Positions 2 through 48,224 of a DNA stretch of 64,000 nucleotides are shown here, in pieces; the first letter of the stretch is position 1, and the number at the start of each line of letters is the position of its first letter. The position numbers and the translations under genes were made by a program. The notes under the pieces were generated by a model. The model was given only the letters and a program-made list of their open reading frames with translations. It was not told the origin of the DNA and ran no database searches. This DNA comes from a virus: IMG/VR virus record IMGVR_UViG_3300047552_001147, positions 30,507 through 94,506 of that record. The stretch is one strand, 5' to 3'.

Positions 2-397
2 TCGACGACGCCGATGGCTGTCAAGCGCATCAGCCCGTGGTGGGCACTGAAAGCTAATCACGCTGAGAACAGCAATCTCAAGATCTTCACGGAGTTTGAG
101 AACAACGGCTCTAGCGCCAGTGCTGGAACATATGACGCTCACCTTACAGCCGATCAGTGGACGCCTGGAGTTGTGTGCGATGGTAGTGGAACACTACTAG
201 GTGATGGCTACCAGTGGATCATGCCGGATGACGGTAGAATCCAGGCCGCCCCGTGGCGCACTGCGCTGCTAGAGTGGCCATATACTGGCACACCGATCAC
301 ATCAAGCATCGTACGAGACAACACCACCAACTCTTCTGATCCGCTGATAACGGATCAAGAAGCTTGGGTCGAGGACGTGTACAACTTCATAGTGTGA
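2..397 (+). CDS. C-terminal part of a virion-type protein (cut by left edge)
   Basis: The reading frame is open from the left edge, so this is probably the end of a longer gene. The first ATG is at 14 and would give 127 residues. The sequence is rich in Gly, Ser, Thr, Asn and Trp, as in beta-structured fibre or receptor-binding proteins, but I recognise no family. The TGA at 395-397 overlaps the next ATG (TGATG), so the two are probably translationally coupled. A perfect copy of the dispersed 21-bp palindrome lies inside the last codons (337-357), where it encodes Asp-Pro-Leu-Ile-Thr-Asp-Gln. Function is inferred only from context next to the portal block. Confidence 0.6.
   Translation, partial: STTPMAVKRISPWWALKANHAENSNLKIFTEFENNGSSASAGTYDAHLTADQWTPGVVCDGSGTLLGDGYQWIMPDDGRIQAAPWRTALLEWPYTGTPITSSIVRDNTTNSSDPLITDQEAWVEDVYNFIV
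337..357. repeat. Perfect 21-bp palindrome at the left edge
   Basis: TGATCCG, CTGATAA, CGGATCA, in the last codons of the first gene and 39 bases before ATG 397. The spacer resembles that of the copy at 31942 (CT-x-AT-x-A). Confidence 0.7.
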
Positions 398-1776
398 TGT
401 GGCTCTTACTGCTACTACAAACAATGCTAACACCCTGGGCACCTAACTACGAGTTCCACATACCGGCCAACTCAACGACGACTGGCCTGTCGTGGACACG
501 CGTGACGCCGACGCTGTACGATGATGTCGGTGGGTGGGCATTCACGTTTAAGACGGGTCAGCGTATTCGCGCCCGCCTATTTGACGACGTACTTGTTGGC
601 ACAGAGCCTAATGCGAAGCCGACAGCGTACACTGGTGATCTGACGATTGACACAACAGACGTTGGTAAGGATCACTACGAGCCGGACATCTGCTGGAACC
701 CAACCACCAGAAACATCGCGCTCGCGTGGAACAACCGCCTGGCGCTTCCTGGTGATGCAATGGACGTTCGCTTCAGAGTCATCAATGAGGCGGGCGTTGC
801 ACAAATGTCGCAAGACGCTCTCGCCACTAGAAAGAAGCTAACGTCCCAGTGGCGTCCTATCCTAGAACCGTACGAAGACTCGTGGATCATGAGCTTCACT
901 GGCAATGATAAGGACTCGGCGTTCTTCACAATGATCGACGCCTCAGCACCGTTTGCACTGACGTCTGATTACCCAGCGCAAGCAGTCGATATCAAGATGG
1001 CGCCGGTGATTGGTTCTCACCGACAAATCGATCAGCACGCTATCGCGCTACCTGATGGACGCATCCTGTGTGCGTGGAATCACTTTGAAGGTAAAGGCCG
1101 CGTCCGCTATCGGTTGTTCAACGCCGACTGCACGCCTACCGGTAACTATGTCGAGCTTCCTGCGCAGCTGACATACGGTAAAGATGAGCCGAGACTCGCC
1201 TACAGCAACGGCTTCATCTGGTTGGTGTATCACCACGAGGTTAAGGGTGGAGAGTATTACGGTCTAGACGTTTACGCTACTGTGCTTAGCTACAACAGCA
1301 CGAGCGGCGCGATTTCTGTAGTAAAAGATGAATTTGCTATTCACCCAATCGACCGTCCTGGGTTACAATTAAAACCAGAGATCACCATCGTAGGCAATAA
1401 GGTGATCATCGTATTTGAAGACTATCCAAGCGCTTACGTACCAACAGGATATGGCGCAACACCTTATCCCGTAATGGTTGTGTCAGGCGGGTACTCGCAG
1501 ATTTGCTACAGAATATTCTCGATTGGTGGTGGCGCAAGAACACGCGTACTCCGCCTAGACAATCAGAGCGTATCCAATCCTAGCGGCAGTGTTCCGTATG
1601 CCTTGCGTCCGGACATTGCAGCCAGCGAAGACGGTGCACAGGCTGTAGTGTGTTGGACGCAGACAAATCTAATTCAGACAGCAATCGGTTCTAGACCGAA
1701 TGACATTTACAGCATACAATCAGGCACGCCGACGCGGCTGTATGCTAGAGTACTCGACCTGACAGCCTTACCTTAA
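397..1776 (+). CDS. Virion protein with beta-propeller-like repeats
   Basis: I chose the ATG that overlaps the upstream stop (459 residues); an in-frame start 33 bases earlier is possible. The N-terminus is unusually hydrophobic (Trp followed by five Leu). The body has repeated blocks of the form Asp-x-Ile/Ala-x(5-8)-Asp-Gly-x(3-5)-Ala-Trp, for example DHYEPDICWN, DQHAIALPDGRILCAW, DEPRLAYSNGFIWLVY and LRPDIAASEDGAQAVVCW. These resemble sialidase/BNR-type propeller blades. Such folds occur in phage adhesins and tail proteins, so a receptor-binding or baseplate role is possible. No catalytic residues are claimed. Confidence 0.55.
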   Translation: MWLLLLLQTMLTPWAPNYEFHIPANSTTTGLSWTRVTPTLYDDVGGWAFTFKTGQRIRARLFDDVLVGTEPNAKPTAYTGDLTIDTTDVGKDHYEPDICWNPTTRNIALAWNNRLALPGDAMDVRFRVINEAGVAQMSQDALATRKKLTSQWRPILEPYEDSWIMSFTGNDKDSAFFTMIDASAPFALTSDYPAQAVDIKMAPVIGSHRQIDQHAIALPDGRILCAWNHFEGKGRVRYRLFNADCTPTGNYVELPAQLTYGKDEPRLAYSNGFIWLVYHHEVKGGEYYGLDVYATVLSYNSTSGAISVVKDEFAIHPIDRPGLQLKPEITIVGNKVIIVFEDYPSAYVPTGYGATPYPVMVVSGGYSQICYRIFSIGGGARTRVLRLDNQSVSNPSGSVPYALRPDIAASEDGAQAVVCWTQTNLIQTAIGSRPNDIYSIQSGTPTRLYARVLDLTALP

Positions 1777-1786
1777 GGAACACAAA

Positions 1787-2201: not shown

Positions 2202-2211
2202 AGGAACGTAG

Positions 2212-4176
2212 ATGGTACTGACCTCAGAGATGAATCGTCGAACCTCTGGTTCGATGAAGTCATTAAACACCTACCCGAGTCAATTCTTTGACATCAGCTC
2301 GCAGTACATGCCGCCGAGCGTCAAGGAAATGTTCCGGTGGTGTCTTTATCTGTACATGACGCACTCCGAGATCGCTCCGGTGATCAACAAGAAGTGCGCG
2401 TATGTCATTACTGACCTGATTTATGAGTCCGGCGATCCTGAGAAGGACAAGCCGAGTGATAAGGTTGTAGATACTTGGCGAGAGCTGCTGGAACGTATCC
2501 TCAAGATCAGTGAAGAAGAGTACAAGCTTCTCCTGGACTTTGAAGTCTACGGCAACGCCTTCTGCTCATTCTTCTTCCCATTCGAGCGTTACCTCAAGTG
2601 CCCGTCTTGTCAGAACGAGCATCTAGGCCGCGACGTTAAGTGGAAGTATGAGGCCCATGAGTTCCGTGGCGTGTGCGCAGACTGCAACGCGCAGACAGCC
2701 TTCATTCCGCGTGATAAGATTGTCAAGAACCGCCGCCGCATTCGGCTGATTCGCTGGTTCCCTCAGTACATTGACATTCAACATAACCCATTCACGGGCC
2801 AGGCTACGTACATCTACCGCATCCCAACATGGCTCAAGAAGCGTGTAGCGGATGTCACTCAGAATAAAGCACTGGTAGAAGAAACGCCGCTGACGTTCCT
2901 CACTGCTATCAAGCAGAAGAAGAACATTCAGTTCGATCCAGACAACTTCTATCACATGAAGAACCCCTCTGTATCTACAGAGGACGATTCGTTTGGTATT
3001 CCCCCGCTGCTATGCGTGTTCAAAGACGCTTGGCTGTTCCAGACATATCGTAGAGCGCAGGAGGCGATCGCAATTGATCACATCCTCCCGATGACTCTAC
3101 TAATCCCCACACCACCGTCTGGTAACGTCAGCCCCCACATGAGCACTAACCTTGCTGAGTGGGCGAGCCGCATGCAGGTTATGATCAGTAAGTGGCGCCG
3201 CGACCCGAACGCCATCTTCACTGTTCCATTCGCAGCCACAGTTGAGAACATTCGTGGCGATGCTAAGGCTCTCGGTGTGCAAGCTGAGATGGAGCAGATT
3301 CGACAGCAGATTTGTGGTGGTCTAGACGTGCCGCAGGAGTTCATCTACGGTGGACTTAACTGGAGCGGAAGCTCTATCTCGCTGCGCGTACTTGAGAACC
3401 TATTCCTCGCCCGCATTTCTCAGCTCGATAACTTCTTGCGCGACTTCGTTGTCCCGTCGATGCAGCGCTTCTGCAGCCTACCGAAGATCGTTGTTCGCCA
3501 CACCGACTTCAAGATGGCTGATGACGTGCAGCAGAAACAGCTGGCGATGAACCTGCGTCAAACGAACACGATCTCTGATCGTACTACTATTGAAGAACTC
3601 GGCTTCGACTACGAGCGCGAAATGAAGCGCCGTAAGGACGAAGAAGATGGTCGCGTTAACCAAATGAAGAAGCAGGCCCAGGCTCAAGCAGAGTCTCAAG
3701 GCCAGCAGATGATTATTCAGGCTAAGTACCAGGCTTTGGCCCAGATTGCTGGACAGAAGGCGGCGCAGGAAGCTGCGATGGCCGCTGCCAACAATAACCC
3801 AATGACTGAACAGATGCCACCCAATATGACAATGCCGGGACAAGGAGCTGAACAAGGTGGTAAGCCAGGTGGCGCAAAGCCGGCTGGTGGAAGCGCTCCC
3901 GCTAAGCAAAGTGGGTCCGGTAGTAGCGGATCAAAAGGCGCACCGCAATCACAACCTCAGGAGATCTCTCCTGTGATGATGGACTCGGTCGTCAATAATT
4001 TCTTGAAGGGTATCCCTGACGATCAGAAAGAGTCTGAGTTGATGGCCATGCGCAAGACTAACCCCTCGCTCGCGGTTCAGATTCAGAAGCGTATGAAGCT
4101 TATCGATAAGCAGTCGAAGGATACTAAGCCATTACCCGAACAAAAACCGCCCAGAAGAAAGAACAGCCCAGTATGA
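2212..4176 (+). CDS. Portal protein with an inserted zinc ribbon
   Basis: The 654-residue product has the layout of myovirus portal proteins. A helical N-terminal part is followed by a Cys4 zinc ribbon (CPSC and CADC, about residues 132-160). A long central part (WFPQYIDI, PSVSTEDDSFGIPPLL, AIDHILPM) ends with GGLDVPQEFIYGGLNWSGSSISLRV, typical of the portal stem and clip region. The tail is Gln/Ala/Gly/Pro/Ser-rich low complexity (about 490-600) and lysine-rich at the end. The protein would form the dodecameric DNA channel at one capsid vertex. The start has an AAAGGA site. A divergent copy of the 21-bp palindrome lies in the low-complexity tail at 3913-3933. The gene is about 19 kb from TerL and 30 kb from the protease, an unusual separation. 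Confidence 0.87.
   Translation: MVLTSEMNRRTSGSMKSLNTYPSQFFDISSQYMPPSVKEMFRWCLYLYMTHSEIAPVINKKCAYVITDLIYESGDPEKDKPSDKVVDTWRELLERILKISEEEYKLLLDFEVYGNAFCSFFFPFERYLKCPSCQNEHLGRDVKWKYEAHEFRGVCADCNAQTAFIPRDKIVKNRRRIRLIRWFPQYIDIQHNPFTGQATYIYRIPTWLKKRVADVTQNKALVEETPLTFLTAIKQKKNIQFDPDNFYHMKNPSVSTEDDSFGIPPLLCVFKDAWLFQTYRRAQEAIAIDHILPMTLLIPTPPSGNVSPHMSTNLAEWASRMQVMISKWRRDPNAIFTVPFAATVENIRGDAKALGVQAEMEQIRQQICGGLDVPQEFIYGGLNWSGSSISLRVLENLFLARISQLDNFLRDFVVPSMQRFCSLPKIVVRHTDFKMADDVQQKQLAMNLRQTNTISDRTTIEELGFDYEREMKRRKDEEDGRVNQMKKQAQAQAESQGQQMIIQAKYQALAQIAGQKAAQEAAMAAANNNPMTEQMPPNMTMPGQGAEQGGKPGGAKPAGGSAPAKQSGSGSSGSKGAPQSQPQEISPVMMDSVVNNFLKGIPDDQKESELMAMRKTNPSLAVQIQKRMKLIDKQSKDTKPLPEQKPPRRKNSPV
3913..3933. 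repeat. Divergent copy of the 21-bp palindrome
   Basis: GGGTCCG, seven bases, then CGGATCA. Two bases differ from the consensus arm TGATCCG. In RNA one of them would still pair as G-U. It lies in the low-complexity tail of the portal gene in a different reading frame from other copies. Confidence 0.4.
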
Positions 4177-4340: not shown

Positions 4341-4347
4341 AAAACAA

Positions 4348-4915: not shown

Positions 4916-5434
4916 CTATTTTGCCTTCTTAGCTACGATCTTCTGGTAGTTTTCCCAGCCGACTTCCTTGGCTGTGAAGCAGTGCTTGATGACAGCCTCG
5001 AACATGGTCGCCGACGCGCGCTTGCCAGAAGCACGATCGATCCACTCAAGGAACTCTTCCGCAGCCACATTCTCGGCGCGGATCTTACCTTTCTTCTCTT
5101 CATCAGCCGTGAAGATCGGATCAGCATCCGGGTGACCTTCTAGCCACTCCAAACCCTTTGCGAACATGTTGCGGCAGGTCTGCTCATATGCTCCGCCGTA
5201 TCCTGAGATCTCGTCCATCTCTGGTGTGAAGACGTATTTGGTTCTGACCTGCTGGACATCAGGAATATCCACACTCAAGTCAGGACCATATACGTCATCA
5301 GCATCCATGACAATCTTCTTGACGCATGTCAAGCATGTCGGGATAGACTCTCCCTTCACTACAGCTGTGACACCATCAATACCTTCCACGAAAGACTTAC
5401 CGCAATCACAGACTTGGTTTCTTACTCCTGACAC
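4916..5434 (-). CDS. Hypothetical protein with N-terminal Cys cluster (172 aa)
   Basis: The N-terminus has CDCG and CLTC about 23 residues apart, a probable zinc-binding site. The rest is helical and charged, ending in a Lys/Ala-rich stretch. The start overlaps the end of the deoxyribosyltransferase-like gene. It is the last gene of the operon that begins at 10069. No family recognised. Confidence 0.55.
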   Translation of the reverse strand: MSGVRNQVCDCGKSFVEGIDGVTAVVKGESIPTCLTCVKKIVMDADDVYGPDLSVDIPDVQQVRTKYVFTPEMDEISGYGGAYEQTCRNMFAKGLEWLEGHPDADPIFTADEEKKGKIRAENVAAEEFLEWIDRASGKRASATMFEAVIKHCFTAKEVGWENYQKIVAKKAK

Positions 5435-9157: not shown

Positions 9158-9669
9158 GACTGCACCTCCTTATCAACGCGTAACTTCCTGATCCGATGAA
9201 GTAGGATCACAACAGCATCAACCGGATGGCTTTTGAAGCCTTCCCATCCGTTTGCTTGCATGTCCTTCTGAATTGTCTGGCTTTGGCCATACCACAGCTG
9301 CTCAGTCATTTTCAACTTCTTGATTTCCTCGGCATCAGCAGCAGCTTTATGCTTCAGCTCTGCAATCTCGTCATAGAGTGTCTCAATCCTGTGGTCAACC
9401 TCCGAAACATGCTGAGACGCGGTATCGTACCAAGATCTGAGCTTCTCAAGCTCCGCCCTATGCTCATCCCGCTCTCGCCGAGCAGATCTGACATCTTCCT
9501 TTGCTGCTTTTGTTTTAGCCTGTTCAGCTGACAGCAAATCCTGAATAGCGACAAAGACGTCCTTCACCAGGTAATCGCCGTAGTTATTGCGCATATGCCA
9601 CGAGCGTGACATATCGCAGGGAATATCCTTGAGAATCATCTCCAGGATCTCTTTGTGTGTTTTTTTCAT
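9154..9669 (-). CDS. Coiled-coil protein (171 aa)
   Basis: Start chosen at ATG 9669, one base after the upstream stop. Residues about 50-135 form a long heptad-rich coiled coil (Ala/Glu/Lys/Arg). The C-terminal part has a short conserved-looking segment (QANGWEGFKSHPVDAVV). One near-consensus 21-bp palindrome lies in its last codons (9189-9209). Unknown function. Confidence 0.55.
   Translation of the reverse strand: MKKTHKEILEMILKDIPCDMSRSWHMRNNYGDYLVKDVFVAIQDLLSAEQAKTKAAKEDVRSARRERDEHRAELEKLRSWYDTASQHVSEVDHRIETLYDEIAELKHKAAADAEEIKKLKMTEQLWYGQSQTIQKDMQANGWEGFKSHPVDAVVILLHRIRKLRVDKEVQS
9189..9209. repeat. 21-bp palindrome, one mismatch
   Basis: TGATCCG, seven bases (ATGAAGT), then AGGATCA. 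The single mismatch is at the inner base of the right arm. It lies near the 3' end of the coiled-coil gene. Confidence 0.6.
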
Positions 9670-10151: not shown

Positions 10152-10487
10152 ATGTCTAGTCCCACAAACCAGTTATCGCAGCGCGTTAAGGACGGTCTGG
10201 CGCAACGCCTGGCCGAGTATCCCGCTGTCCTGCGTACCCGGACCTTGGGGGATATTGCTTCAACCAAGATGCGTAGAATTGAGCTCTTGGATTTGAACAA
10301 AGAAGCCGACAGATGCCGATGGCAGCTTCTCCACAATGACCCAGAGCGATTTGAGGTTATTAGCGAGAAGGAATCTCATCAAAAGCAAGAGTATTTTGTT
10401 CGAATCATTTACAACGAGCTGGGCGACGACCAGTCAGTCGTAAAAACTAAGGAAGAGCTGCGATCCGAAGAAACCGGATCAGTTTAG
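10152..10487 (+). CDS. Hypothetical protein upstream of the RNA polymerase gene (111 aa)
   Basis: The product is helical at the N-terminus and beta-like at the end (EYFVRIIYNEL). It is separated from the polymerase gene by two bases, so the two are cotranscribed. It does not show the omega-subunit pattern or a clear helix-turn-helix. A polymerase accessory role is only suggested by position. Its last codons carry a copy of the 21-bp palindrome (10461-10481). Confidence 0.6.
   Translation: MSSPTNQLSQRVKDGLAQRLAEYPAVLRTRTLGDIASTKMRRIELLDLNKEADRCRWQLLHNDPERFEVISEKESHQKQEYFVRIIYNELGDDQSVVKTKEELRSEETGSV
10461..10481. repeat. 21-bp palindrome, one mismatch, before the RNA polymerase start
   Basis: CGATCCG, seven bases (AAGAAAC), then CGGATCA. 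Only the outermost base differs from consensus. It ends eight bases before ATG 10490, so as DNA it could bind a regulator and as RNA it could mask the start region. Confidence 0.65.
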
Positions 10488-10489
10488 CA

Positions 10490-13400
10490 ATGCTAGATCA
10501 TCAAAAATCCTTCGAGTCTGCGATTGTTCTTGCCGAGAAGATCGTCAAAGAAGCCTTCCCGATTGTCGGCAAACACCACACGGTTCAGGCCAGCAACTTC
10601 CGCTGGCAGGGTGTTGGGTCATCTGTATCATACGACATTGCCGCCCAAAAGAAAGCCAAGCTAGAAGACAAGTCGCTTCTCGCTACCCTCCTGGCCGATG
10701 TCCAGGTAGTTGACAAGACCGGCAAAGTGCTGGATCAGCGAGACGGCCACATCGTCCTCCAGATCCCACACATCACCTCTAGAGCTTCGTACATCCTGCA
10801 AGGGACGGAGCGCCAGGTCATCAACCAGCTTAGATTGCGCCCAGGTATTTACGCCGACTTCACGCCGGACAACAACATCAAGGTGCGCATCAACACGTCA
10901 GCCGCAGGCACCTACGCTGTCCTTCTGGACAGAGAGAGCCTGATAATGACGTTTAGGGTTGGCACCTCGACCAACTTCCCAATCATCTCAGTTTTGAAGG
11001 TATTGGGCCTGAACGAGGTTGAGATCCGCCAGCTGCTGGGAGACAAGATCTTCGCGGTAAACCAGAAGAAGTCTAAGCCTGATATGGATGCGCTGAAGCT
11101 GATCAAGAAGCTCCGCCCATACCACGCCACAGCCAACGTAGACGACGCTAAGAAGATGGTCGTTGACTTCCTGGCATCAAAGCCGCTGGACCCGGAAGTT
11201 AACAAGGTAACGATTGGCAAGCCGATTGATAAGGTGGACCAGTCAGCAGTTGTTGAGTGTGTGCGCAAGGCAATTTCTCTTGCCACTGGTGCCTCTGAGC
11301 CGGATGACGTCGAATCGTTAGCGTTCAAGTCGATCCTATCATTTGACGACTTCGTGGCCGAGAGACTGCTAAAGGCCATCCCCGATATCAAGCGTAAGGT
11401 TGCGTCACTGGTTGATAGAAAGCCGCAGGTGCTGTTTGCCTTGCCGCCGTCAATGTTCACAGACACTATTGACAACTTCTTCAACAAGTCTGAGTTCACG
11501 CGACACGCTGACCAGAACAACCCGATTGACATTGCCGCCGTCAACTCCCTTGTCACTACGATGGGTGAGGGCGGTATCAAGAGCACGTACGCGGTGACTG
11601 ACGAGGTCCGCACGATTCACCCGTCGCACTTAGGTATCCTCGACGTGGCGCACACCTCAGAAGGTGGCAACATCGGTATTACCAACCACCTGTCGCTGGG
11701 AGCGAAGAAGATTGGCAGTGCTTTGGGCATGTCTGTCTATGACGCCCGCACAGGTAAAAGAGAAGACCACACAATCCAGGCGCTCGTTAACAAGACCATC
11801 GCATACCCGGACCAGTATGATAACCTTGGCAAGGGGATCCCGAAGCCCAGGGGTAAGGAGATCAAGGTAAGGGCTGGCAGCTCTTTCAAGGTCGTGTCTC
11901 CTAAAGAGGTAGACTACGTTTTTACGACGCCCGACTCCTTCTTCTCGTCAACAACCTCCGCTATCCCCTTCCTGCCGAACAACCACGTTAACCGCGTGTT
12001 GATGGGTGATAAGCACATTGAGCAGGCAGTTAATCTGACGAACCCCGATAAGCCGTTGGTCATGCACGAGATGACCAGTGGCCCGGATGCCCCTAAGAAG
12101 ATCTCGGCGGGCTACGAAGAGCTGTTCGGTCAGATGTTCAACATCAAGTCACCGGTCAAGGGCAAGGTCACGAAGGTGACTGCCGACGCTATCTACATCA
12201 AGCCTACAACAGGCAAGGCGGTTCCGGTAGCTATCCACAATAACTACCCGCTGAACTCGCACACGTTCTTCCACGACACGCCCAGCGTTAAGGTCGGCGA
12301 TCGCGTCAAAGAGGGTCAACCGCTGGCTGAGAGTAACTTCACCAAGGACAATGTCCTGGCTCTCGGTAAGAACCTGAGAGTAGCGTATACCGCATACAAG
12401 GGGTATAACTTCGAGGACGGTGTTGTTATCTCCGAAGCGGCTGCTCAAAAGCTCACATCTACCCACAAGCACGAGTACCGTGTTGACGTAGATAAGAACA
12501 CTAAGACTGGCGCAGACATCTTCTTTGCCGCCTTCCCGCAAGACCTTAAGTACCTGCGCGAGCTGAAAGAGCGCTACGACTCTGACGGTATCATCAAGAA
12601 GGGCATCAAGGTAGAGCCCGGCGATATCCTTATCCCGGCGTTCCAACAGATCCCGCTGCACGCGGAGTTCGACTACAAGAGACTCGGTAAGAAGCTCGGT
12701 GATAGAGCTATCGACATCTCTCAGCGGTGGGACGGCCTAGGTCCCGCTGAAGTTATTGACGTTGTCAAGTCCAGATCGTTCATCAAGGTCTTCCTAAAGT
12801 CGGAAGAGCCTATGAAGATCGGCGACAAGATCAGTATGCGTCACGGCGGTAAGGGTATCATTACCCACATCGTCCCAGACGATCAGATGTACAAGGACGA
12901 GTCGGGCAACATCGTTGACGTGCTTTTGAACCCTCTCGGTGTGCCTAGCCGTGTCAACACTGGCCAGCTGTTTGAGACAGCGGCAGGTAAGCTAGCACAG
13001 AAGACCGGTAAGCCGTACTATACGAAGAACTTCAACGAGACGCACGGCAATACCCTAGGGAAGCTGAAGAGCGACCTCGCTGCTGCCGGTGTTAAGGATG
13101 CTGAGACCCTAACTGATCCTGTGACTGGTCGCAAGCTGCCCGAGACCCTCGTAGGCATCACGCATATCTACAAGCTTAAGCATCAGGTTGACACGAAGTT
13201 CAAGGCTCGTGGCGCAACTGATGAGAGCTTCACTCTTGATGAGCAGCCGGCAAAAACTGACGAATCGTCCGCACAACGTATCGGTATGCTCGACACGTTC
13301 TCGCTGCTCTCCGGCGATGCAACGCACTTCCTGAACGACGCCTACGGTATCAAGTCACAGAAGAACGACGAGTATTGGGTTGCCCTGCAACGCGGGGTCA

Positions 13401-16400
13401 TGCCTCCGCCTCCAAAGGTACCGTTCATTACAGAACGCTTCGTGACGATGTTGCTTGGTGCGGGAATCAACCTTCGCCAGGAAGGTAGCAAGCTAACCGC
13501 TGCCCCGCTCACCGACAGTCAGATCAAGAACATGTCGCACGGTGAGATCGATAAGCCGCTAGTGGTTAAGTCTACCAACCTGATGCCTGAGAAGGGCGGG
13601 CTCTTTGACCCCGTCAAGACTGGCGGTATCGGCGGTAACCGGTTCAATCACATTGAACTTGTGACACCTATCCCTAACCCGTTGATGCTGGACGCGATCA
13701 CGTCCGTCGCACGTCTTCCAAAGACTGATATCCTTACACAGATCATTGATGGTAACCTCGCTGTCAATGATCAAGGTGAGGTTGTTAAGGACTTGAACGA
13801 CGGAGCCAGCTTCGGTAACGGCGTGATCAATCTACTCAAGAACATTGACGTTGAGAAGGAGATCACACGCACACAGGCGGAGATCAAGACGTCTAAGGCG
13901 GATAAGCTCAACGCAGCATATCGCCGACTCAAGTATCTGCGTGCTTTGAAAGAGCTTAAGCTAAAGCCGGTAGATGCCTACACAAACAAGTTCGTTCCGA
14001 TCATTCCGGCGAAGTTCAGAAATGTTCAGCCAAGAACTGACGGGTCGCTAAACGTGGCTGATGCAAACTTCGGCTATCGCGAAGTGATCATGATCAACAA
14101 CCAGCTGAAGAAGCTGTCGACTGCCGGAATCTCGCAAGATAACCTCAAGACGCTGAACCGTGACCTGTTCCGGGCCGTGTCTGGTATTACTGGTGTGACT
14201 GCCCCTCTAACGAGAGCGGCGGACGTTTCCGGCTTCATTGAGAAAATCAAAGGACCTAGCCCGAAGATGGGCTTCTTCCAGTCTAGAGTACTAACCAGAG
14301 CGCAAGATCTGTCAGCGCGTTCTACAGTTATCCCTAACCCCAAGCTTGGGCTGGACGAGATCGGTCTACCGTCTGAGATGGCGCTAACGATCTACAAGCC
14401 CTTTGTTGTGAAGCGTCTAGTTGGTCTTGGATATGATCCGCTACGCGCCAGAGATATGGTTGAGAAGCGAGACGAGCTCGCAATCCGCGCGCTGCAGTCG
14501 GAGATCGAAGATCGTCCGGCGATCATGAACAGAGCGCCGTCTCTGCATAAGTTCAACCTACAAGCATTTAAGCCGCGTCTAATTGAAGGTAGAGCGGTAG
14601 AAGTCAACCCGCTGATCGTTGCGGGATACAACATGGACTTCGACGGCGATACAGCTGGTATCCACGTCCCCGTGTCTGAGGATGCGCGCAAAGAGGCCTG
14701 GGATAAGTTGATGCCTAGCCGCAACCTGTTTGCTACTAGAGAGGACTCGGTTATTCACGCCCCCTCAAGAGAAACGGTTCACGGCCTGTATCTGATGACA
14801 ACGCCCAAGGGCACGCCCGTACCTGTGAAGTCGGTCAAAGAACTGATGGACATGTACAAGGACGGGAAGATCGAGGTAAACGCAGCGGTCACTGTTGGCG
14901 GTCAAGTGCAATGTGCTGGGCAGTACTTAGTTGATGCGCTAATACCGGATCAAATCAAGCTCGGCCCTGTACAGATCACATCGAAGAACCTCAAGGATCT
15001 TCTGATCAGTGTTGCTAAGACACAAGAGTCTAACAAGGCTGGCGAGATCATCTCCAAACTGAAAGACCTTGGTAACCACTACGTCACGCACGTCGGCTTC
15101 TCGATTTCACTCAACGACCTGGAGATTGATAGAGGTCTACGCGACGACATCATGACCAAGGCTAAGCAGCGCATCAAGGAAGTCGGCTTCAATACCGCTG
15201 CCAACGAGGCGTCTAAAGGTGTCAAGGATCTGGTCAGTAAGACCAAAGACAACCGGTTCGTAGAGGTTTCGGTAACATCCGGCGCCCTAGGAAAGCTCGA
15301 CTCTCTCGCACAGATGGTCGGGTCGCCAGTCGCTGTTGAGGACCACAAAGGCCGCGTCGTTCCCATGCTGATCGAGAAGTCGTATGCAGAAGGACACGAC
15401 CTAGGATCGTATTTGGCAACAGCCCCCGGTGCTCGTAAAGGCCTGGTAGATAAGGGCTTATCGGTAGGTGAGACAGGTTACTTCAACAAGAAGCTTGTGA
15501 ACACCACGATCGAGTATAAGATTGTCTCGCCTGATTGTAAGACAACGATCGGCATCGATATGCCGCTTTCATCGAGTGATATCTACGATAGGTTTGTGGC
15601 CGCCGGTCCTTACCGCAATAAGCAGTTGACTCCCGAGTTCGTAAGACAGCTAACAGCGAAGGGGAAGACGAAGATTCTTGTTCGTTCCCCAATGACATGT
15701 GCCGCAATCGGTGGCCTGTGTCAGAAGTGCTTCGGCCTCGACTCCAGCGGAAAGCTTCCGCCGATTGGATCACATATCGGAGCTCTCGCTGGCCAGACGC
15801 TAGGAGAACGTGCAACGCAAACAACGCTGAAAGCCTTCCACACCGGCGGTACTATCGGCGGACCTAAGCTAGGATTTGATCGCATCTCCGAGATCGTGGA
15901 GATGCCTGAAACGATTAAGAACAAAGCCACGCTGGCATCTGTTTCTGGAGCAGTCAGTAAAATAGAAGAAACGCCAACAGGCGGTTGGTTCGTTTATGTG
16001 AAGGACACCAAGCACTTCGTTCCGAAAGAACTCGGATTAGGGGTTAAGCTGCGACAAGTAGTTAAGGCTGGCGATAAGCTTAGCCAAGGAGGCACAATCA
16101 AGCCTCAAGAGCTACTTGAATACACAGGCAGCATTAACACTGTCCGCAATTATCTAGTGAACGAGCTGGCGCAAAGCTACAGCAAAGAGCAAGGTGCTTA
16201 CATCAAACGAAAGCTACTAGAAACTGTTGTTCGTCCATTAACTGACAAGGCCCAGGTAACAGATGCTGGCGGGGCACTCAACAAGTTCAACGTGTATCCT
16301 GGAGATGTTCTCTCTGTCAACCTGATTAAGGACTACAATAAGCAGCTGAGAGTTTCCAAGCAACCAGAGATCAAGTTCGAGCCGATGCTGCTTGGAATCA

Positions 16401-16579
16401 ATAACGCACCTTATCACAGCCAGGACTTCATTGGTCCGCTATCTCACGAGCGGTTGAAGCAGACGATCGTGCGGGCACCGCAGTTCGGCATGTCAACCGA
16501 CATCGAGAAGGGTCACCCGATGGCCCAGCTGGCCCTGAAGAACCTAAGAGACATCGAAAGTACCAGAGCTAGAACGTGA
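10490..16579 (+). CDS. Single-chain multisubunit-type RNA polymerase (beta fused to beta-prime)
   Basis: The 2029-residue chain contains beta then beta-prime in collinear order. Beta motifs are LQGTERQVINQLRLRPGIY (about 102), GYNFEDG (638), GDKISMRHGGKG (778) and LNPLGVPSR (about 815). Beta-prime begins near 1030 with GLFDPVKTGG. It continues with the switch-2 region SARSTVIPNP (about 1276), the catalytic DFDGD (1383-1387) with three Mg-binding Asp, and the bridge helix GARKGLVDKGL (1647). The second zinc site TCAAIGGLCQKC (about 1736-1747) and the trigger loop ERATQTTLKAFHTGGT (about 1772) follow. The N-terminal beta-prime zinc finger is missing, and the chain is much shorter than bacterial beta plus beta-prime (about 2750 residues). 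No alpha subunit is seen in the window. The gene lies among late structural genes and ends with a GTGA overlap into a spike gene. It should synthesise RNA from phage promoters, perhaps with the sigma factor at 47391. Confidence 0.95.
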   Translation: MLDHQKSFESAIVLAEKIVKEAFPIVGKHHTVQASNFRWQGVGSSVSYDIAAQKKAKLEDKSLLATLLADVQVVDKTGKVLDQRDGHIVLQIPHITSRASYILQGTERQVINQLRLRPGIYADFTPDNNIKVRINTSAAGTYAVLLDRESLIMTFRVGTSTNFPIISVLKVLGLNEVEIRQLLGDKIFAVNQKKSKPDMDALKLIKKLRPYHATANVDDAKKMVVDFLASKPLDPEVNKVTIGKPIDKVDQSAVVECVRKAISLATGASEPDDVESLAFKSILSFDDFVAERLLKAIPDIKRKVASLVDRKPQVLFALPPSMFTDTIDNFFNKSEFTRHADQNNPIDIAAVNSLVTTMGEGGIKSTYAVTDEVRTIHPSHLGILDVAHTSEGGNIGITNHLSLGAKKIGSALGMSVYDARTGKREDHTIQALVNKTIAYPDQYDNLGKGIPKPRGKEIKVRAGSSFKVVSPKEVDYVFTTPDSFFSSTTSAIPFLPNNHVNRVLMGDKHIEQAVNLTNPDKPLVMHEMTSGPDAPKKISAGYEELFGQMFNIKSPVKGKVTKVTADAIYIKPTTGKAVPVAIHNNYPLNSHTFFHDTPSVKVGDRVKEGQPLAESNFTKDNVLALGKNLRVAYTAYKGYNFEDGVVISEAAAQKLTSTHKHEYRVDVDKNTKTGADIFFAAFPQDLKYLRELKERYDSDGIIKKGIKVEPGDILIPAFQQIPLHAEFDYKRLGKKLGDRAIDISQRWDGLGPAEVIDVVKSRSFIKVFLKSEEPMKIGDKISMRHGGKGIITHIVPDDQMYKDESGNIVDVLLNPLGVPSRVNTGQLFETAAGKLAQKTGKPYYTKNFNETHGNTLGKLKSDLAAAGVKDAETLTDPVTGRKLPETLVGITHIYKLKHQVDTKFKARGATDESFTLDEQPAKTDESSAQRIGMLDTFSLLSGDATHFLNDAYGIKSQKNDEYWVALQRGVMPPPPKVPFITERFVTMLLGAGINLRQEGSKLTAAPLTDSQIKNMSHGEIDKPLVVKSTNLMPEKGGLFDPVKTGGIGGNRFNHIELVTPIPNPLMLDAITSVARLPKTDILTQIIDGNLAVNDQGEVVKDLNDGASFGNGVINLLKNIDVEKEITRTQAEIKTSKADKLNAAYRRLKYLRALKELKLKPVDAYTNKFVPIIPAKFRNVQPRTDGSLNVADANFGYREVIMINNQLKKLSTAGISQDNLKTLNRDLFRAVSGITGVTAPLTRAADVSGFIEKIKGPSPKMGFFQSRVLTRAQDLSARSTVIPNPKLGLDEIGLPSEMALTIYKPFVVKRLVGLGYDPLRARDMVEKRDELAIRALQSEIEDRPAIMNRAPSLHKFNLQAFKPRLIEGRAVEVNPLIVAGYNMDFDGDTAGIHVPVSEDARKEAWDKLMPSRNLFATREDSVIHAPSRETVHGLYLMTTPKGTPVPVKSVKELMDMYKDGKIEVNAAVTVGGQVQCAGQYLVDALIPDQIKLGPVQITSKNLKDLLISVAKTQESNKAGEIISKLKDLGNHYVTHVGFSISLNDLEIDRGLRDDIMTKAKQRIKEVGFNTAANEASKGVKDLVSKTKDNRFVEVSVTSGALGKLDSLAQMVGSPVAVEDHKGRVVPMLIEKSYAEGHDLGSYLATAPGARKGLVDKGLSVGETGYFNKKLVNTTIEYKIVSPDCKTTIGIDMPLSSSDIYDRFVAAGPYRNKQLTPEFVRQLTAKGKTKILVRSPMTCAAIGGLCQKCFGLDSSGKLPPIGSHIGALAGQTLGERATQTTLKAFHTGGTIGGPKLGFDRISEIVEMPETIKNKATLASVSGAVSKIEETPTGGWFVYVKDTKHFVPKELGLGVKLRQVVKAGDKLSQGGTIKPQELLEYTGSINTVRNYLVNELAQSYSKEQGAYIKRKLLETVVRPLTDKAQVTDAGGALNKFNVYPGDVLSVNLIKDYNKQLRVSKQPEIKFEPMLLGINNAPYHSQDFIGPLSHERLKQTIVRAPQFGMSTDIEKGHPMAQLALKNLRDIESTRART
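14932..14952. repeat. 21-bp palindrome, one mismatch, inside the polymerase gene
   Basis: TGATGCG, seven bases (CTAATAC), then CGGATCA. One base differs in the left arm. It lies within coding sequence and could be a chance match, although the spacer resembles those of other copies. Confidence 0.45.
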
Positions 16580-20136: not shown

Positions 20137-21183
20137 ATGGGCCACTCTAGGCCCCAAATTGCTAAAGAGTTCCGCATCAATGAGCGGACACTCTGTTGGC
20201 TAGAACAGACTGGTCGGCTCCATCTTGAGTGGAAGCCGTTAAACGGCCTGCTAACTTGTGAGCTAGACGACGACGCTCGTCGAGTGCTCGCTTGTGCTGC
20301 CGTGTCTGTTACAGCGCTGGATAACGTCCTGCCTTTCCAGCGGTTCCTCATTCTCAGAACGCTCCAGCTTCCTGCCGACGAGCAGTACCAGGAGCTGCTA
20401 GACCGCAACATCTTTGCGCCAGCTGGCTTTAGCTTAGAAGCTATCACCGCTATCAGAGAGCAGATAATTGATCGGCTTCCGCTGGTTGTGCGCCGATTTG
20501 TGAAGACTAATCGCCCGCCAGAGACAGACGAAGAGCGGCAATGGCTAGACGGTGTGCTGGATGCGTGTGAGGTTCACCTCGCGTACCACCACCCAGACCT
20601 AGAGCAATCGTTCCAGTTCATGCCGAATCCGGAGTACAAGGAAGCGGTGGATTGCGCGGTTAGCACCAAATCGAGCTACGCAGACATTCAGAAATTCTTG
20701 ATTGATGTGCTAGGATTGCGGGTATCTGTGGAGGGAATCGCCTTCTATCAGCAGCTCTTCCACGACATCAACATCGTGTCGACAGACAATCTGCGGATGT
20801 ACCTAAAGAAGGTCAAGCCTTCTCTCAGATCGCGCATGGCTCTTGCTGTTAGCAGCTCGATTGATACCTTCAGAGTCAAGAGCGGCATCGACGACAAGTT
20901 TGAAGTCGACAAGGTCATGTCCGTCTTCAAGGACGACCTGATCAACGATCTGCTCAAGATGCTGAACAATAAAGCGCCAGAATCTGAGAAGGCATTCAAC
21001 AACACGCTGCGAAGTCTGGTTATTGTTTTGGACCGCATGGACCGGATCAAAAGCGCAAACACCAAGTCTGGCAACGGCGTCCCTCAGTTCTTCAAGACAA
21101 TCAAAGTCTCAGCCCAACCATCTAACGAGATGAAGATCTTCCAGCTACCATCTCCTGTTAAGGACAGCGCACAGTCACAATGA
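20137..21183 (+). CDS. Candidate small terminase or DNA-binding partner of TerL
   Basis: The gene lies directly upstream of TerL and overlaps it by 4 bases. The N-terminus (SRPQIAKEFRINERTLCWLEQTGRL) reads as a helix-turn-helix, as in small terminase subunits that recognise phage DNA. The remaining about 310 residues are helical. At 348 residues it is longer than typical TerS (150-200). Function is inferred from the HTH and position. Confidence 0.5.
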   Translation: MGHSRPQIAKEFRINERTLCWLEQTGRLHLEWKPLNGLLTCELDDDARRVLACAAVSVTALDNVLPFQRFLILRTLQLPADEQYQELLDRNIFAPAGFSLEAITAIREQIIDRLPLVVRRFVKTNRPPETDEERQWLDGVLDACEVHLAYHHPDLEQSFQFMPNPEYKEAVDCAVSTKSSYADIQKFLIDVLGLRVSVEGIAFYQQLFHDINIVSTDNLRMYLKKVKPSLRSRMALAVSSSIDTFRVKSGIDDKFEVDKVMSVFKDDLINDLLKMLNNKAPESEKAFNNTLRSLVIVLDRMDRIKSANTKSGNGVPQFFKTIKVSAQPSNEMKIFQLPSPVKDSAQSQ

Positions 21184-25224: not shown

Positions 25225-25225
25225 G

Positions 25226-26086
25226 CTAGCGTACCTTGCAGACGATGAGGTTGTTGGGAGGAGTTGTGTTCCAATATGCCGGAATGCTGTTGGTAACAGC
25301 AATCTTGGAGAAGTTGGCCATGAGTTCGTCAAAGCCCTTGGAGAAAATGCCGTGTGTGACGCACAAGGCGATATTGCTCACCGGGACTTTTGCGTCTTGT
25401 AGCGCCTTCGAGATCGCGATGAAGGTTGCGCCCCCATCACAGATGTCGTCGACGATGATGTAGTTGTGATCCGGAAATACCGGATCACATAGTTTGGCTG
25501 AAAGGCTGCGGACTCCGTCTTTTTCCGTGCGCTTCTTCAGCGCTTGGATCATCGGGTAGTCTCTGCCTTCGAGTACCTTGGGTACCCAAGAAGATGCGCC
25601 AGCGTCAGGGATGACAATGGTGCAATCCTTTTTGCCCGCAGTAACCTCGCGCACGAGCCACGGGGTTACGTCATTTTCCTTAGCATTGTCCAGCAATGCC
25701 AGCATCGCCGGAGAGTGTGGACGCAGCACCCTCACCCGCTCGAATTTCATCGAGTTGATGATCCGGCAGTTGATGCGAAGGTCGTTCGCCTCCCCTGGCC
25801 TGAATGCTCTGTCAGATCTGCTGGCAGACATGTACGTGATTTCCAGGTCTGTCAGCGCCGGGTACGCTTCTTTGAGCTGAGCAAGCAACAAGAGATAGTC
25901 CCCGGTCTGGATACCGGCAATTACGCGCGTAGCCCTGTGATTGAATTCGTTCAGGGACACGCGATCGCTTGGCTTTTCGAAGTGCACATGCCCGTCCGGG
26001 AATCGCGAAAAAGGGACCCTTTCCAGCTGTATAGGATTGTATACGGGATCAATGTCGTGATCATCCAGATCGTCGTAGTGACTCAT
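25226..26086 (-). CDS. PRPP-synthetase-family enzyme (Prs or Adps-like)
   Basis: The 286-residue product has the phosphoribosyl-pyrophosphate synthetase layout: SRSDRAFRPGEA (the Arg/Asp loop), VIPDAGASSW, and the PRPP-loop equivalent VDDICDGGATF. It is slightly shorter than cellular Prs (about 310). Prs makes PRPP from ribose 5-phosphate and ATP. The NARP1 homologue Adps instead pyrophosphorylates ADP-ribose. The stop is two bases from the next start, so the pair is one unit. A perfect palindrome with 10-bp arms lies in the gene at 25465-25489. Confidence 0.82.
   Translation of the reverse strand: MSHYDDLDDHDIDPVYNPIQLERVPFSRFPDGHVHFEKPSDRVSLNEFNHRATRVIAGIQTGDYLLLLAQLKEAYPALTDLEITYMSASRSDRAFRPGEANDLRINCRIINSMKFERVRVLRPHSPAMLALLDNAKENDVTPWLVREVTAGKKDCTIVIPDAGASSWVPKVLEGRDYPMIQALKKRTEKDGVRSLSAKLCDPVFPDHNYIIVDDICDGGATFIAISKALQDAKVPVSNIALCVTHGIFSKGFDELMANFSKIAVTNSIPAYWNTTPPNNLIVCKVR
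25465..25489. repeat. Perfect 21-bp palindrome, extended to 10-bp arms
   Basis: TGTGATCCGG, AAATA, CCGGATCACA. The core (25467-25487) matches the consensus TGATCCG-N7-CGGATCA exactly. It lies about 240 bases before the end of the PRPP-synthetase-like gene. Confidence 0.75.
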
Positions 26087-30175: not shown

Positions 30176-30489
30176 GATACTTTACCTTCAGCCTTGGCGA
30201 GGGCGGCATTGATGACTGAGTAGAGTTCTGAATGTTCGTCAGAGTCGTCCCCAGCGAACATCTCAGCCACTTGTCGCAACGCCTCATACATCTCTGGTGC
30301 AGCGGCGATCAGGTCGAGGTTTGCGTTCTCTTCATCCGGACTACGCAGGTGCCGTGAATATTTTGAAGATGCCGGGCACGCAACTATCCCACGATCCGCA
30401 CCGCATATGAAAAACCGCGTTTCAGCCACTCCAACAGAGTTAAGCCAGCCGCGACGCCACGGCCCCTTTGTGAAGCCAGGTCTACTCAT
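30172..30489 (-). CDS. Widespread small phage protein (FTKGPW / LIAAAPEMYEAL type)
   Basis: The N-terminal FTKGPWRR and the C-terminal segment NLDLIAAAPEMYEALRQVAE are the signature of a small protein seen in many phages and prophages. Its function is not known. It overlaps neighbours by 4 bases. Confidence 0.6.
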   Translation of the reverse strand: MSRPGFTKGPWRRGWLNSVGVAETRFFICGADRGIVACPASSKYSRHLRSPDEENANLDLIAAAPEMYEALRQVAEMFAGDDSDEHSELYSVINAALAKAEGKVS

Positions 30490-30686
30490 TTCACCGGTTC
30501 CTTGATTTTGAACTGAGTCTCTCCTGTTTTCGGATCAACAACCCATTCGGCATATCCCTTCTCAATGAGCTCGTCCCTAATCTGCTTAACCTTGCCACAA
30601 GTGCCGGCTACGTGGAATAAGGCAAACAACGCAGATCCAGCTGCGAGTCCGACACAGATTCCGTTGATAAAGCGGGAGTCACTCAC
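30486..30686 (-). CDS. Membrane protein, tandem paralogue 3 (66 aa)
   Basis: GTG 30686 overlaps the upstream stop (GTGA). One membrane helix (NGICVGLAAGSALFALFHVAG) is followed by a conserved tail, ELIEKGYAEWVVDPKTGETQ then FKIKEPVK. The tail is shared with the two genes upstream. See the finding on the triplet. Confidence 0.6.
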   Translation of the reverse strand: MSDSRFINGICVGLAAGSALFALFHVAGTCGKVKQIRDELIEKGYAEWVVDPKTGETQFKIKEPVK

Positions 30687-30898
30687 TTGAGGCACTCCTT
30701 GATTTTGAGTTCCGTTCTGCCTGTCACCGAATCGACAACTACCCACTCGGCGTAGCCGCGCTCGATCAGGCGACGTTCCATCTGCTCGGCAGTCCAGTCA
30801 CGGGCGCTCGACTTGCCTTGGTAGAAGCCAATCACGAACATCGCGACCAGCGCAACCGCAAACAGCGCAATGACCGACCAAGTAGTTTCGTACTTCAT
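30683..30898 (-). CDS. Membrane protein, tandem paralogue 2 (71 aa)
   Basis: ATG 30898 overlaps the upstream stop (ATGA). A membrane helix (WSVIALFAVALVAMFVIGF) precedes the same conserved tail, RLIERGYAEWVVVDSVTG then KIKECLK. The three genes clearly arose by duplication. Confidence 0.6.
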   Translation of the reverse strand: MKYETTWSVIALFAVALVAMFVIGFYQGKSSARDWTAEQMERRLIERGYAEWVVVDSVTGRTELKIKECLK

Positions 30899-31098
30899 TT
30901 GACACACTCCTTGATTTTGAATTCTGTTTTTCCAGTGCGCGGATCTACGATGACCCACTCAGCATAGCCCCGATCCACTAGAACCTTGTTAAGTTCCCGA
31001 CTCTTGCCGTCGAAGTGCGAGGTAGCGCAGATCATTGTGATGAAGAAGGTAAGCACGGCGCCTGTGACAAGCCCCGGAATGAACCCGTCGCTGCTCAT
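30895..31098 (-). CDS. Membrane protein, tandem paralogue 1 (67 aa)
   Basis: A membrane helix (PGLVTGAVLTFFITMICA) precedes the conserved tail, VLVDRGYAEWVIVDPRTG then FKIKECVK. The C-terminal tail is nearly identical across the triplet, whereas the helix differs. Confidence 0.6.
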   Translation of the reverse strand: MSSDGFIPGLVTGAVLTFFITMICATSHFDGKSRELNKVLVDRGYAEWVIVDPRTGKTEFKIKECVK

Positions 31099-31941: not shown

Positions 31942-31962
31942 TGATCCGCTCATTACGGATCA
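31942..31962. repeat. Perfect 21-bp palindrome before the head operon
   Basis: TGATCCG, CTCATTA, CGGATCA. It is intergenic, ends 13 bases before ATG 31976 and directly follows the T-tract of the leader terminator. As the only fully non-coding perfect copy, it is the best evidence for a regulatory site. Confidence 0.75.
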
Positions 31963-38816: not shown

Positions 38817-39338
38817 ATGGCAAACGTAAGAGTTTTCTGGTTTGGTAAAACACTGCTGAAGTCGCCTAGAACTGGGATACGTCCCAACGGCACGACTACA
38901 TATGACGAGCGTATTGCTAAGGAATTGGTCAAGGATAGTGGCGATTTGCTGATGGTCACAACGCTGGACCAGAGAAAAGTCCTGCACCTGGGCAAGAAGA
39001 TCGACCCAGAATACATCGTATTCAAATACCCGTCTCTAAAGGAAGTCGTAGAGAAGGCCGCTGGAATCAAAATCATTACGACAGTCAGCGACGTAATTAA
39101 GCACATCGCGTCAGAGCCTCTGACGCTTATGGACGAAATTCAACAGAGACAACTGCATCAGTTCCTAGAAATGGGTAAGCCAGAAGACACGGCTCCTGAA
39201 GGAAATACTGATCCCGTAACAACGGATCAGGAATCTACTGGTGCTGAAGCAAAAGTGGAAGATACTGTAGTAGAGAAGCCTAAGCGCGGAAGACCTAAGA
39301 AGGTCGCCGATAGCACGCCTAGTGCTGACACACAATGA
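38817..39338 (+). CDS. Structural-module protein with C-terminal AT-hook (173 aa)
   Basis: The first 110 residues are mixed alpha/beta. The tail is Glu/Thr/Pro/Ser-rich and ends with KPKRGRPKKVAD, a canonical AT-hook (Arg-Gly-Arg-Pro) that binds the minor groove of AT-rich DNA. This is unusual for a neck or head gene. A copy of the 21-bp palindrome lies in the disordered tail (39209-39229). VVEKAAGIK contributes one Lys-x-Ala motif. Confidence 0.6.
   Translation: MANVRVFWFGKTLLKSPRTGIRPNGTTTYDERIAKELVKDSGDLLMVTTLDQRKVLHLGKKIDPEYIVFKYPSLKEVVEKAAGIKIITTVSDVIKHIASEPLTLMDEIQQRQLHQFLEMGKPEDTAPEGNTDPVTTDQESTGAEAKVEDTVVEKPKRGRPKKVADSTPSADTQ
39209..39229. repeat. 21-bp palindrome, one mismatch
   Basis: TGATCCC, seven bases (GTAACAA), then CGGATCA. 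One base differs. It lies in the low-complexity tail of the AT-hook gene, 105 bases before ATG 39335. Confidence 0.6.
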
Positions 39339-45884: not shown

Positions 45885-45902
45885 TAGCGTAGAGGCAAAC
45901 AC

Positions 45903-46631: not shown

Positions 46632-46655
46632 TAGCTAAAATCAGAGTGTTGATTG

Positions 46656-46691
46656 TAAAAAAACCAGGGCCGTCATTGGCCCTGGTTTTTT
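46656..46691. terminator. Perfect bidirectional terminator between late and replication blocks
   Basis: An A-tract, CCAGGGCC, a six-base loop GTCATT, GGCCCTGG and a T-tract. The hairpin works in both directions. The minus-strand stop codon (TGA, 46673-46675) lies in the loop, so the stem encodes the last residues of the 46673 gene. Confidence 0.92.
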
Positions 46692-47398
46692 GTCATCTCA
46701 TTTGGATGGCAGATCTCTCTAAGACCATAGATTCGCTGCCGCAATAAGGCGTTAAGGTGTACATTCTGTACTTCACTCTTAAACGGAGCACTCCTTTTCA
46801 GGATATACAACGCTGGCCGATATTCTCCGAACGCTTCCTTGTAACGGATGATCCGTCGTTCCACATCATCAAGCAAGAAGAAACCGGCGGACAGGATGAC
46901 TATCTTACACTGAATCCTATCGATTCTCAGTGCGTGAATAGGTTGTTGCTGTACAGGTAGGTTGAAGAGATCGTCACGAGCGTTATCGACATCGTGGGAT
47001 GTGAAGACATGCCCGAGCTCTTTACTGTACGCATCCAGGACCTGCTTTACTAAGCCAGTGAGAGGCTTACGGAATTCCCTGAACAGGAAGATGATCGCCG
47101 AGTTACTAGACGCAAGTGAGTGCACCCCTGAATTTCGGCGGCGCATGAGATTCATCACATTGAGATACTGGTACCGGTTGCTCGCCGGTTCTCCGCCGTA
47201 TGCCTCAGCCATCACCTCGTTTCTTGCATGAATGTATTCTAGGCCGCGATCCCGCTGCTGAAGAAATTCGCTGCGCGTTCTATTAGACTCCTGCAACACC
47301 TGCGAGAAGATGTAGTTGTGTTCGGAGGAGGATTGAATCAGTTGGCCAATCTCTTCGAGAGTGCTGTGTAGTTCCTGGTAAGGGGCGTGTTCAGTCAT
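46673..47398 (-). CDS. Hypothetical protein downstream of sigma (241 aa)
   Basis: It overlaps the sigma gene by 8 bases and ends in the terminator loop. The product is helical with a basic C-terminal half. I see no HTH or enzyme motif. Its coupling to sigma suggests a role in transcription control, perhaps an anti-sigma or coactivator; this is inference only. A palindrome copy lies two bases before its start codon. Confidence 0.55.
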   Translation of the reverse strand: MTEHAPYQELHSTLEEIGQLIQSSSEHNYIFSQVLQESNRTRSEFLQQRDRGLEYIHARNEVMAEAYGGEPASNRYQYLNVMNLMRRRNSGVHSLASSNSAIIFLFREFRKPLTGLVKQVLDAYSKELGHVFTSHDVDNARDDLFNLPVQQQPIHALRIDRIQCKIVILSAGFFLLDDVERRIIRYKEAFGEYRPALYILKRSAPFKSEVQNVHLNALLRQRIYGLREICHPNEMTKNQGQ

Positions 47399-48224
47399 TG
47401 TGATCCGCTAACAGCGGTTCATTTTTCAAGGCTACCCACAGTTTTCGTAGCCCGTCATTCTCTAGTTGCCTAATTCGCTCACGAGTGAATCTGTAGAACT
47501 GTGCGAGATCATCGTATGTTTCTGTGTCTTGGTAGCCAAGACCGTAGTGTCTACGAATGATGTCTTCCAGCTCTGGTGGCAATTTGGCTAGCGCCTCGGA
47601 CAGCTTCTGAGATGTTTCATTCTCAAGCATCTCATCGAATACCGCCCTATCTTCGTCGATGATTAACGGATCGTTCTTCAGCTGCCCCATTTCTGACGCA
47701 GTCTCGATGTTCTCAAGCGGAATGATCTGCCGCTCAGAATCTTCAAGATACTGGATGATGGTAGTATCGTCCCACTCCAGCGCAATGAACACTTCTTCCT
47801 GAGAAGGCCGCTGACCGTTCTGCAAATGAAGCTGCTTGGCCATGGCCCGGTACTTAGTATGCAGTACCTTGTGCTGGTGGATCTTCGGCTGGATCGCGTG
47901 AAGCTCCTTACGGATCCTTGCTTGAATCCACCACACAGCGTAAGTAGAGAACCGGTTCTTCTTCGATACCTTGAAGTCGTCGATGGCTTTCATTAGACCA
48001 AGTGTCCCTGCGGACACCAGGTCCATCGCCTTTGCATCGTTAGAGTCAACGAACCTCAAGACGCAGCTCAGCACTAGCCGCATGTTGTGAGTGATGAACA
48101 GGTCTCTTGCGGCGATATCTCCTTTCTTGATCTTACGGAGAAGCTTGCGCTCCTCCTTAGCGTCAAAGTGGGAGAACGTTCTGAACTGATTATAGTACGC
48201 CTGAAATTCGGACTCTTGTTTCAT
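47391..48224 (-). CDS. Sigma-70-family transcription initiation factor
   Basis: The 277-residue product has region 2 (about 33-115): ITHNMRLVLSCVLRF, MDLVSAGTLGLMKAIDDFK and the promoter-melting RFSTYAVWWIQARIRK. A region-3-like part follows (HTKYRAMAKQLHLQNGQRPSQ is split by a turn). Region 4 (about 212-268) ends in YDDLAQFYRFTRERIRQLE, a helix-turn-helix for -35 contact. Region 1.1 is absent. Such a factor would direct a polymerase to phage promoters. The partner could be the fused enzyme at 10490 or the host core. It overlaps the next gene, and a palindrome copy lies in its last codons. Confidence 0.92.
   Translation of the reverse strand: MKQESEFQAYYNQFRTFSHFDAKEERKLLRKIKKGDIAARDLFITHNMRLVLSCVLRFVDSNDAKAMDLVSAGTLGLMKAIDDFKVSKKNRFSTYAVWWIQARIRKELHAIQPKIHQHKVLHTKYRAMAKQLHLQNGQRPSQEEVFIALEWDDTTIIQYLEDSERQIIPLENIETASEMGQLKNDPLIIDEDRAVFDEMLENETSQKLSEALAKLPPELEDIIRRHYGLGYQDTETYDDLAQFYRFTRERIRQLENDGLRKLWVALKNEPLLADHND
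47401..47421. repeat. 21-bp palindrome, one mismatch, at the sigma gene end
   Basis: TGATCCG, seven bases (CTAACAG), then CGGTTCA. It lies in the last codons of sigma and, on the minus strand, ends two bases before the start codon of the next gene at 47398. Confidence 0.65.

Follow-up and report, generated by a model that had tools for sequence, protein, structure and literature searches.

Palindromic sites scattered over a replicon and bound by one DNA-binding protein are familiar from the KorB sites of RK2 and the SopB sites of N15. Among phages, cluster A mycobacteriophages such as L5 and Bxb1 carry up to ~30 short repressor sites, the stoperators, distributed genome-wide and with a motif that differs together with the repressor (PMC6550527), whilst in SPbeta around ten dispersed sites in one genome, termed SPBRE, are bound by a single phage protein, MrpR (PMC10516654). 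Here we analyse a dispersed 21-bp palindrome, TGATCCG-N7-CGGATCA, in a 64,000-nucleotide stretch of viral DNA (the window), corresponding to positions 30507-94506 of the 94,506-bp IMG/VR virus record IMGVR_UViG_3300047552_001147, from a tailed phage referred to below as G000. The key fact, which lay outside the view of a preliminary description of the window, is that the relatives of G000 have palindromes of the same style but of different sequence. This suggests that in each phage a protein recognises and organises or marks that phage's own genome.

Counted at up to two mismatches, the palindrome occurs 17 times in the whole record (three, eight and six copies with none, one and two mismatches respectively), whilst codon-shuffled (codon-block) controls gave a mean of 0.30 copies. 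The motif is thus enriched over codon-preserving shuffles, the check proposed in the preliminary description (17 copies versus 0-1). A scan at three mismatches was swamped by codon-phase repeats and was discarded. Only a spacer of exactly seven bases gives this set, since no alternative length between 0 and 40 yields more than two copies, and the spacer itself is non-random, with a recurrent T (-2) and A (+2) (TGATCCG-nTnwnAn-CGGATCA); the similarity previously noted between spacers as CT-x-A is borne out in this symmetric form. Read from the centre, the half-site has the consensus T-10 G A T C C G-4 and a further T at -2. The coordinates given earlier were all correct (perfect copies at 337, 25467 and 31942, one mismatch at 9189, 10461, 14932, 39209 and 47401, and two at 3913), whilst the two-mismatch copies at 5103, 21029 and 59819 had been overlooked (Table 1). 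Three copies had been placed just before start codons, and we find them 8, 13 and 2 bases from those at 10490, 31976 and 47398 (minus strand) respectively, the last copy also lying within the 3' end of the sigma factor gene. Most copies in G000 are intragenic, in unrelated genes and in different reading frames. The G000 word itself is not widespread, since a scan for the exact motif across all viral contigs returned 18 stretches, approximately the number expected by chance, with a single perfect copy in each.

No annotated phage was found near G000 at the DNA level. Searches with the RNA polymerase, the DNA polymerase, a protein of the capsid region and a conserved head/tail protein brought in around 14 related contigs; the RNA polymerase query recovered the closest relatives, and the terminase and DNA polymerase queries mostly distant kin. 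Motifs in these contigs were found by a blind search for over-represented palindromes. Seven relatives with a fused beta-beta' RNA polymerase carry strong dyads, each with its own sequence in a shared 21-bp frame, usually TG...CA, and in 7-33 copies: G030 (TGACMACTC-N3-GAGTKGTCA, 15 copies), G034 (TGRCACT-N7, 9), G036 (TGTGTY-N9, 33), G038 (nGTACCAAA, 7), G040 (TGGCTATAC, 10), G041 (TGGACC, 9) and G043 (TGGGATTAT, 27). One base further out, the half-sites of G036, G038 and G041 read cTGTGTY, TnGTACCAAA and TTGGACC respectively. The G030 site is asymmetric, with one half TGACAACTC and the other TGAYCACTC, and is found in both directions. Weaker cases from the blind search were TGGTTCT, recovered independently in G032 and G035, and TGATCCG in G033; sites scored with a seeded matrix were weak in both G033 and G028, and the blind search backs the motif of G033 but not that of G028. 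The motif-by-genome matrix is near-diagonal, each motif being abundant essentially in its own genome only, whilst G000 and G033 share a word (motif correlation r 0.92). Outside these contigs, crAss001 and N4 have no comparable palindrome, and in Vibrio phage D69 the only one is weaker and terminator-like. A previously unseen distant member, G046, a contig of 178 kb binned as Dependentiae, was also searched blind and holds a strong dispersed palindrome with the core TCCAAATTTGGA (54 copies versus 8 expected). We had predicted a 21-bp TG..CA palindrome in G046, and this failed, the palindrome found there being shorter. A dispersed palindrome is therefore common in this phage family, whilst the 21-bp frame and even spacing are confined to the closer members and G043.

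The G000 copies are more evenly placed than expected at random (P=0.009), and over ten genomes the combined Fisher P for evenness is 1.3e-10. Across six genomes 69 of 85 sites lie wholly within predicted genes, and the asymmetric G030 sites show no preference with respect to transcription (~6 co-oriented versus ~6 anti-oriented, read by eye). Some positions are shared between genomes. G000, G033 and G034 all have a site at the sigma gene 3' end, even though the G034 word is different, and G000 and G033 have one in common inside the RNA polymerase gene; elsewhere the positions mostly differ. Words and sites thus turn over against a background of some fixed positions, the pattern that would arise if the sites were tracking a reader that itself changes.

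The palindrome, the fixed spacer, the occurrence in different frames and the related motifs in kin make sites for a dimeric protein, close to one of the earlier proposals, the best reading. Conservation had been suggested at the DNA or RNA level, and it is the DNA level that holds. Seven-base arms could pair as RNA hairpins, and each perfect copy contains two GATC sites that could be controlled by methylation, yet we regard both possibilities as very improbable. Mismatches on the gene strand show no sign of RNA pairing, because G.T, which is paired in RNA, is not commoner than A.C, which is unpaired (28 versus 33), and the G030 sites retain an unpaired position in mid-stem. GATC is a trait of the TGATCCG-type phages and is missing from most of the other phages' motifs, which argues against methylation as a general mechanism. 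Chance or a side effect of coding has a negligible probability: the in-gene copies do favour one frame (10 of 14), but TGA stops in one frame account for this and the preference changes between genomes, whilst codon-shuffled controls never held more than one copy and the sites are carried by genes for unrelated proteins.

We infer that the palindromes are sites of a phage-encoded, sequence-specific dimeric DNA-binding protein with a genome-wide role, for which a helix-turn-helix (HTH)-like protein would be the likeliest reader; this is the explanation we tentatively favour, whilst judging it slightly short of probable. A dimer would sit on each palindrome with one half-site (~7-9 bp) per subunit, at sites recurring over the entire chromosome every ~4-15 kb (the interval varying between phages), and each lineage would have its own site word and a matching version of the reader. 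The complex may organise, condense or loop the phage chromosome, or mark it as self. Regular spacing, intragenic sites and indifference to the direction of transcription favour such a genome-wide role over local promoter control, and the protein more likely acts architecturally than through promoter operators. It is possible, if somewhat doubtful, that a family of large phages equipped with a multisubunit-type RNA polymerase of their own carries lineage-specific 'self' palindromes, regularly spaced in genes and read by a phage-encoded architectural protein with tails like those of histones, amounting to a sequence-addressed nucleoid.

Both candidate readers lie in a conserved cassette comprising genes for Cas4, an HTH-like protein with Lys-rich tails, a small protein, usually RuvC and a zinc ribbon, a ribbon-helix-helix (RHH) protein, a small protein and sigma. 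The Cas4-adjacent HTH-like protein (candidate reader A, 51106-52404) is the likeliest putative reader. Its core is alignable in all 13 genomes checked (the G030 gene was found by six-frame search), and the predicted reader has histone-like Lys-rich tails in most relatives (G030, G034, G037, G038, G040, G041, G043, G044 and G046). Over ten genomes, similarity of the core tracks similarity of the motif (Mantel r 0.53, partial 0.34). In addition, C-C at half-site positions -6,-5 occurs in G000, G033, G038 and G041, exactly those genomes with [K/R/Y/H][S/T] at helix positions 2-3, a feature picked after looking at the data.

Several observations weigh against this explanation. An SSB-like protein correlates better with the motif (r 0.61; 10 genomes, ~25 proteins compared), and with ten genomes, many proteins compared and this higher score, covariation of the HTH-like protein is a lead and not proof. 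The HTH call, which comes from our reading of the alignment, found no support in Pfam or the PDB, and the clear matches of the protein are to PHROGs of unknown function only. The blind search detected no motif in G037, G042, G044 and G045, though cassette proteins are present there, and the G046 palindrome, 18 bp long, has neither TG...CA nor even spacing. Evenness also fell short of significance in G032 and G035, whose sets are sparse, and was borderline in G038 and G041. Finally, 16 of the 85 sites touch non-coding DNA against 4.8 expected, and this approximately threefold enrichment at gene junctions, together with the sites before start codons (10461, 31942 and 47401), leaves room for regulation.

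Such regulation is central to a competing explanation, that the sites are operators or stoperator-like roadblocks read by the tandem RHH protein (candidate reader B, 48812-49306), with a single-chain RHH unit on each half-site, two per palindrome, through which the phage RNA polymerase would be controlled at initiation or elongation. We consider this unlikely, though it draws on the junction enrichment, on the three sites just before start codons and on a gene that is hypervariable (~20% identity between relatives) and lies near sigma in the relatives holding that region; in G043, G044 and G046 the gene was assigned by synteny and eye only. AF2 models of two members predict two beta-alpha-alpha units per chain, and Pfam RHH_1 is above cut-off in one of 12 members (G030). 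For both models the top Foldseek matches, with weak E-values (0.03 or worse), are F relaxosome chains, which we take to be TraY because the match 9f10_E stems from a structure without TraM. TraY has the RHH dimer fold within a single chain (F relaxosome; PMC12117103). Synteny and fold initially made the RHH protein the best candidate, but it failed the covariation check, with no correlation to the motif beyond phylogeny (Mantel r 0.26, partial -0.14; ten genomes), and G000 and G033 have a common word whilst their RHH proteins differ in the predicted DNA-facing strand residues and have a low similarity score (0.13). That ~80% of sites are intragenic, with no orientation bias, also counts against operators. 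Thus the HTH-like protein covaries better with the motif whilst the RHH protein is better supported in its fold. Quite improbable, in our judgement, is a role in DNA transactions, as plasmid-like partition or packaging sites or as marks for recombination or cleavage. Palindromes at intervals do resemble dispersed centromere sites, and genes for RuvC-like and other resolvases lie near the candidate readers; against this, the sites are unclustered and number 7-33, and no ParA-like or integrase gene was found among the proteins scanned, which in the incomplete G000 record included the neighbours of both candidates. Nor were immunity repressor, integrase or partition genes seen among the families found, the record being incomplete and many proteins having no family.

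Table 1. Palindrome copies and selected genes of G000, in window coordinates.
Feature	Coordinates	Strand	Remarks
Palindrome copy, perfect (TGATCCGCTGATAACGGATCA)	337..357	.	Inside a gene
Palindrome copy, 2 mismatches	3913..3933	.	Inside 654-aa gene
Weak copy, 2 mismatches	5103..5123	.	May be chance
Palindrome copy, 1 mismatch	9189..9209	.	
Palindrome copy, 1 mismatch	10461..10481	.	8 bases 5' of RNA polymerase start codon (10490)
Palindrome copy, 1 mismatch	14932..14952	.	Within RNA polymerase gene; position kept in G033
Palindrome copy, 2 mismatches	21029..21049	.	Inside a gene
Palindrome copy, perfect	25467..25487	.	Within PRPP-synthetase-like gene
Palindrome copy, perfect	31942..31962	.	Intergenic; 13 bases 5' of 31976 start codon; directly after terminator-like hairpin
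Palindrome copy, 1 mismatch	39209..39229	.	Inside a gene
Palindrome copy, 1 mismatch	47401..47421	.	Sigma gene 3' end; site here in G033 and G034 too (G034 motif different)
Palindrome copy, 2 mismatches	59819..59839	.	Within DNA polymerase gene
Fused beta-beta' RNA polymerase	10490..16579	+	Pfam; query for finding relatives
Sigma factor, cassette member	47391..48224	-	Pfam Sigma70_r2/r4
Candidate reader B, tandem RHH protein, 164 aa	48812..49306	-	Syntenic, hypervariable; AF2, Foldseek; Pfam RHH_1 in G030 member
RuvC-like resolvase, cassette member	49454..49969	-	Pfam RuvC
Candidate reader A, 432 aa, HTH-like core	51106..52404	-	Lys-rich tails in most relatives; alignment, covariation
Cas4-type exonuclease, edge of conserved cassette	52621..53640	-	PHROG matches

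The fused beta-beta' RNA polymerase of G000, assigned by Pfam, is 2029 aa long, and the phage also encodes a family A DNA polymerase, primase, UvsX-like recombinase, helicase, Cas4-type exonuclease, RuvC-like resolvase and sigma factor. The record is probably incomplete, because it ends just after the primase without the replicative-helicase-like gene of the relatives. Base composition predicts 368 GATC sites in the record, which holds 652, an over-representation that extends well past the palindromes. The RNA polymerase genes of G028 (2358 aa) and G032 (2953 aa) contain large in-frame insertions, possibly inteins (loci L035 and L039). The contig encoding the RNA polymerase and cassette of G046 (L155, contig 71) belongs to a Candidatus Dependentiae metagenome-assembled genome with separate rpoB/rpoC-like genes, which may be a hint to the host or a binning error. 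Adjacent NAMPT-like (23779-25332) and PRPP-synthetase-like (25226-26086, minus strand) genes in the window, near each other in phage D69 too, resemble phage NAD+ rebuilding (counter-defence) pathways. G000 encodes Mtd_N, a major-tropism-determinant N-terminal domain (L006, 7585-9714, plus strand), and G030, G034, G036 and G037 have apparent reverse transcriptase genes (G030 111560-112708 and relatives), so that these loci are possible diversity-generating retroelements. At window positions 30486-30975 (minus strand) lie at least three small tandem paralogous genes with 54-81 nt repeats that are 63-75% alike.

Dispersed protein sites are known in a few temperate phages, and we found no description of regular intragenic palindromes running through a phage family with an own word for each phage; likewise, in the incompletely covered literature on phage genomes we found neither dispersed palindromes with RHH proteins nor evenly dispersed 21-bp palindromes. 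Should the reader be architectural, the system would offer a route to studying chromosome organisation or self-recognition during phage infection, and its many site/protein pairs form a natural set from which to learn how two fast-evolving protein families recognise DNA. F TraY and lipothrixvirus AvtR have a tandem RHH fold like that of candidate reader B, with no sequence relation found, and TraY binds oriT, unlike the dispersed palindromes described here. Compared with the KorB and SopB sites, those of G000 and its relatives are more numerous, evenly spaced and different in sequence in each phage, and no ParA-like partner was found. With SPBRE and MrpR they share many sites for one phage protein, here a predicted one; however, SPBRE sites are promoter or intergenic and MrpR is a recombinase-like repressor of lysogeny, whereas the present sites are mostly inside genes despite the junction enrichment. 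The likeness to stoperators raised in the preliminary description holds in part, for there are many dispersed sites of one motif (17 in G000 and 7-33 in seven relatives) and the motif differs between kin. The single orientation has no counterpart: stoperators are 13-bp asymmetric sites of temperate phages, predominantly in one orientation to transcription, whereas the sites described here are 21-bp palindromes, or lie in both directions in G030, with no orientation preference and a mostly intragenic placement.

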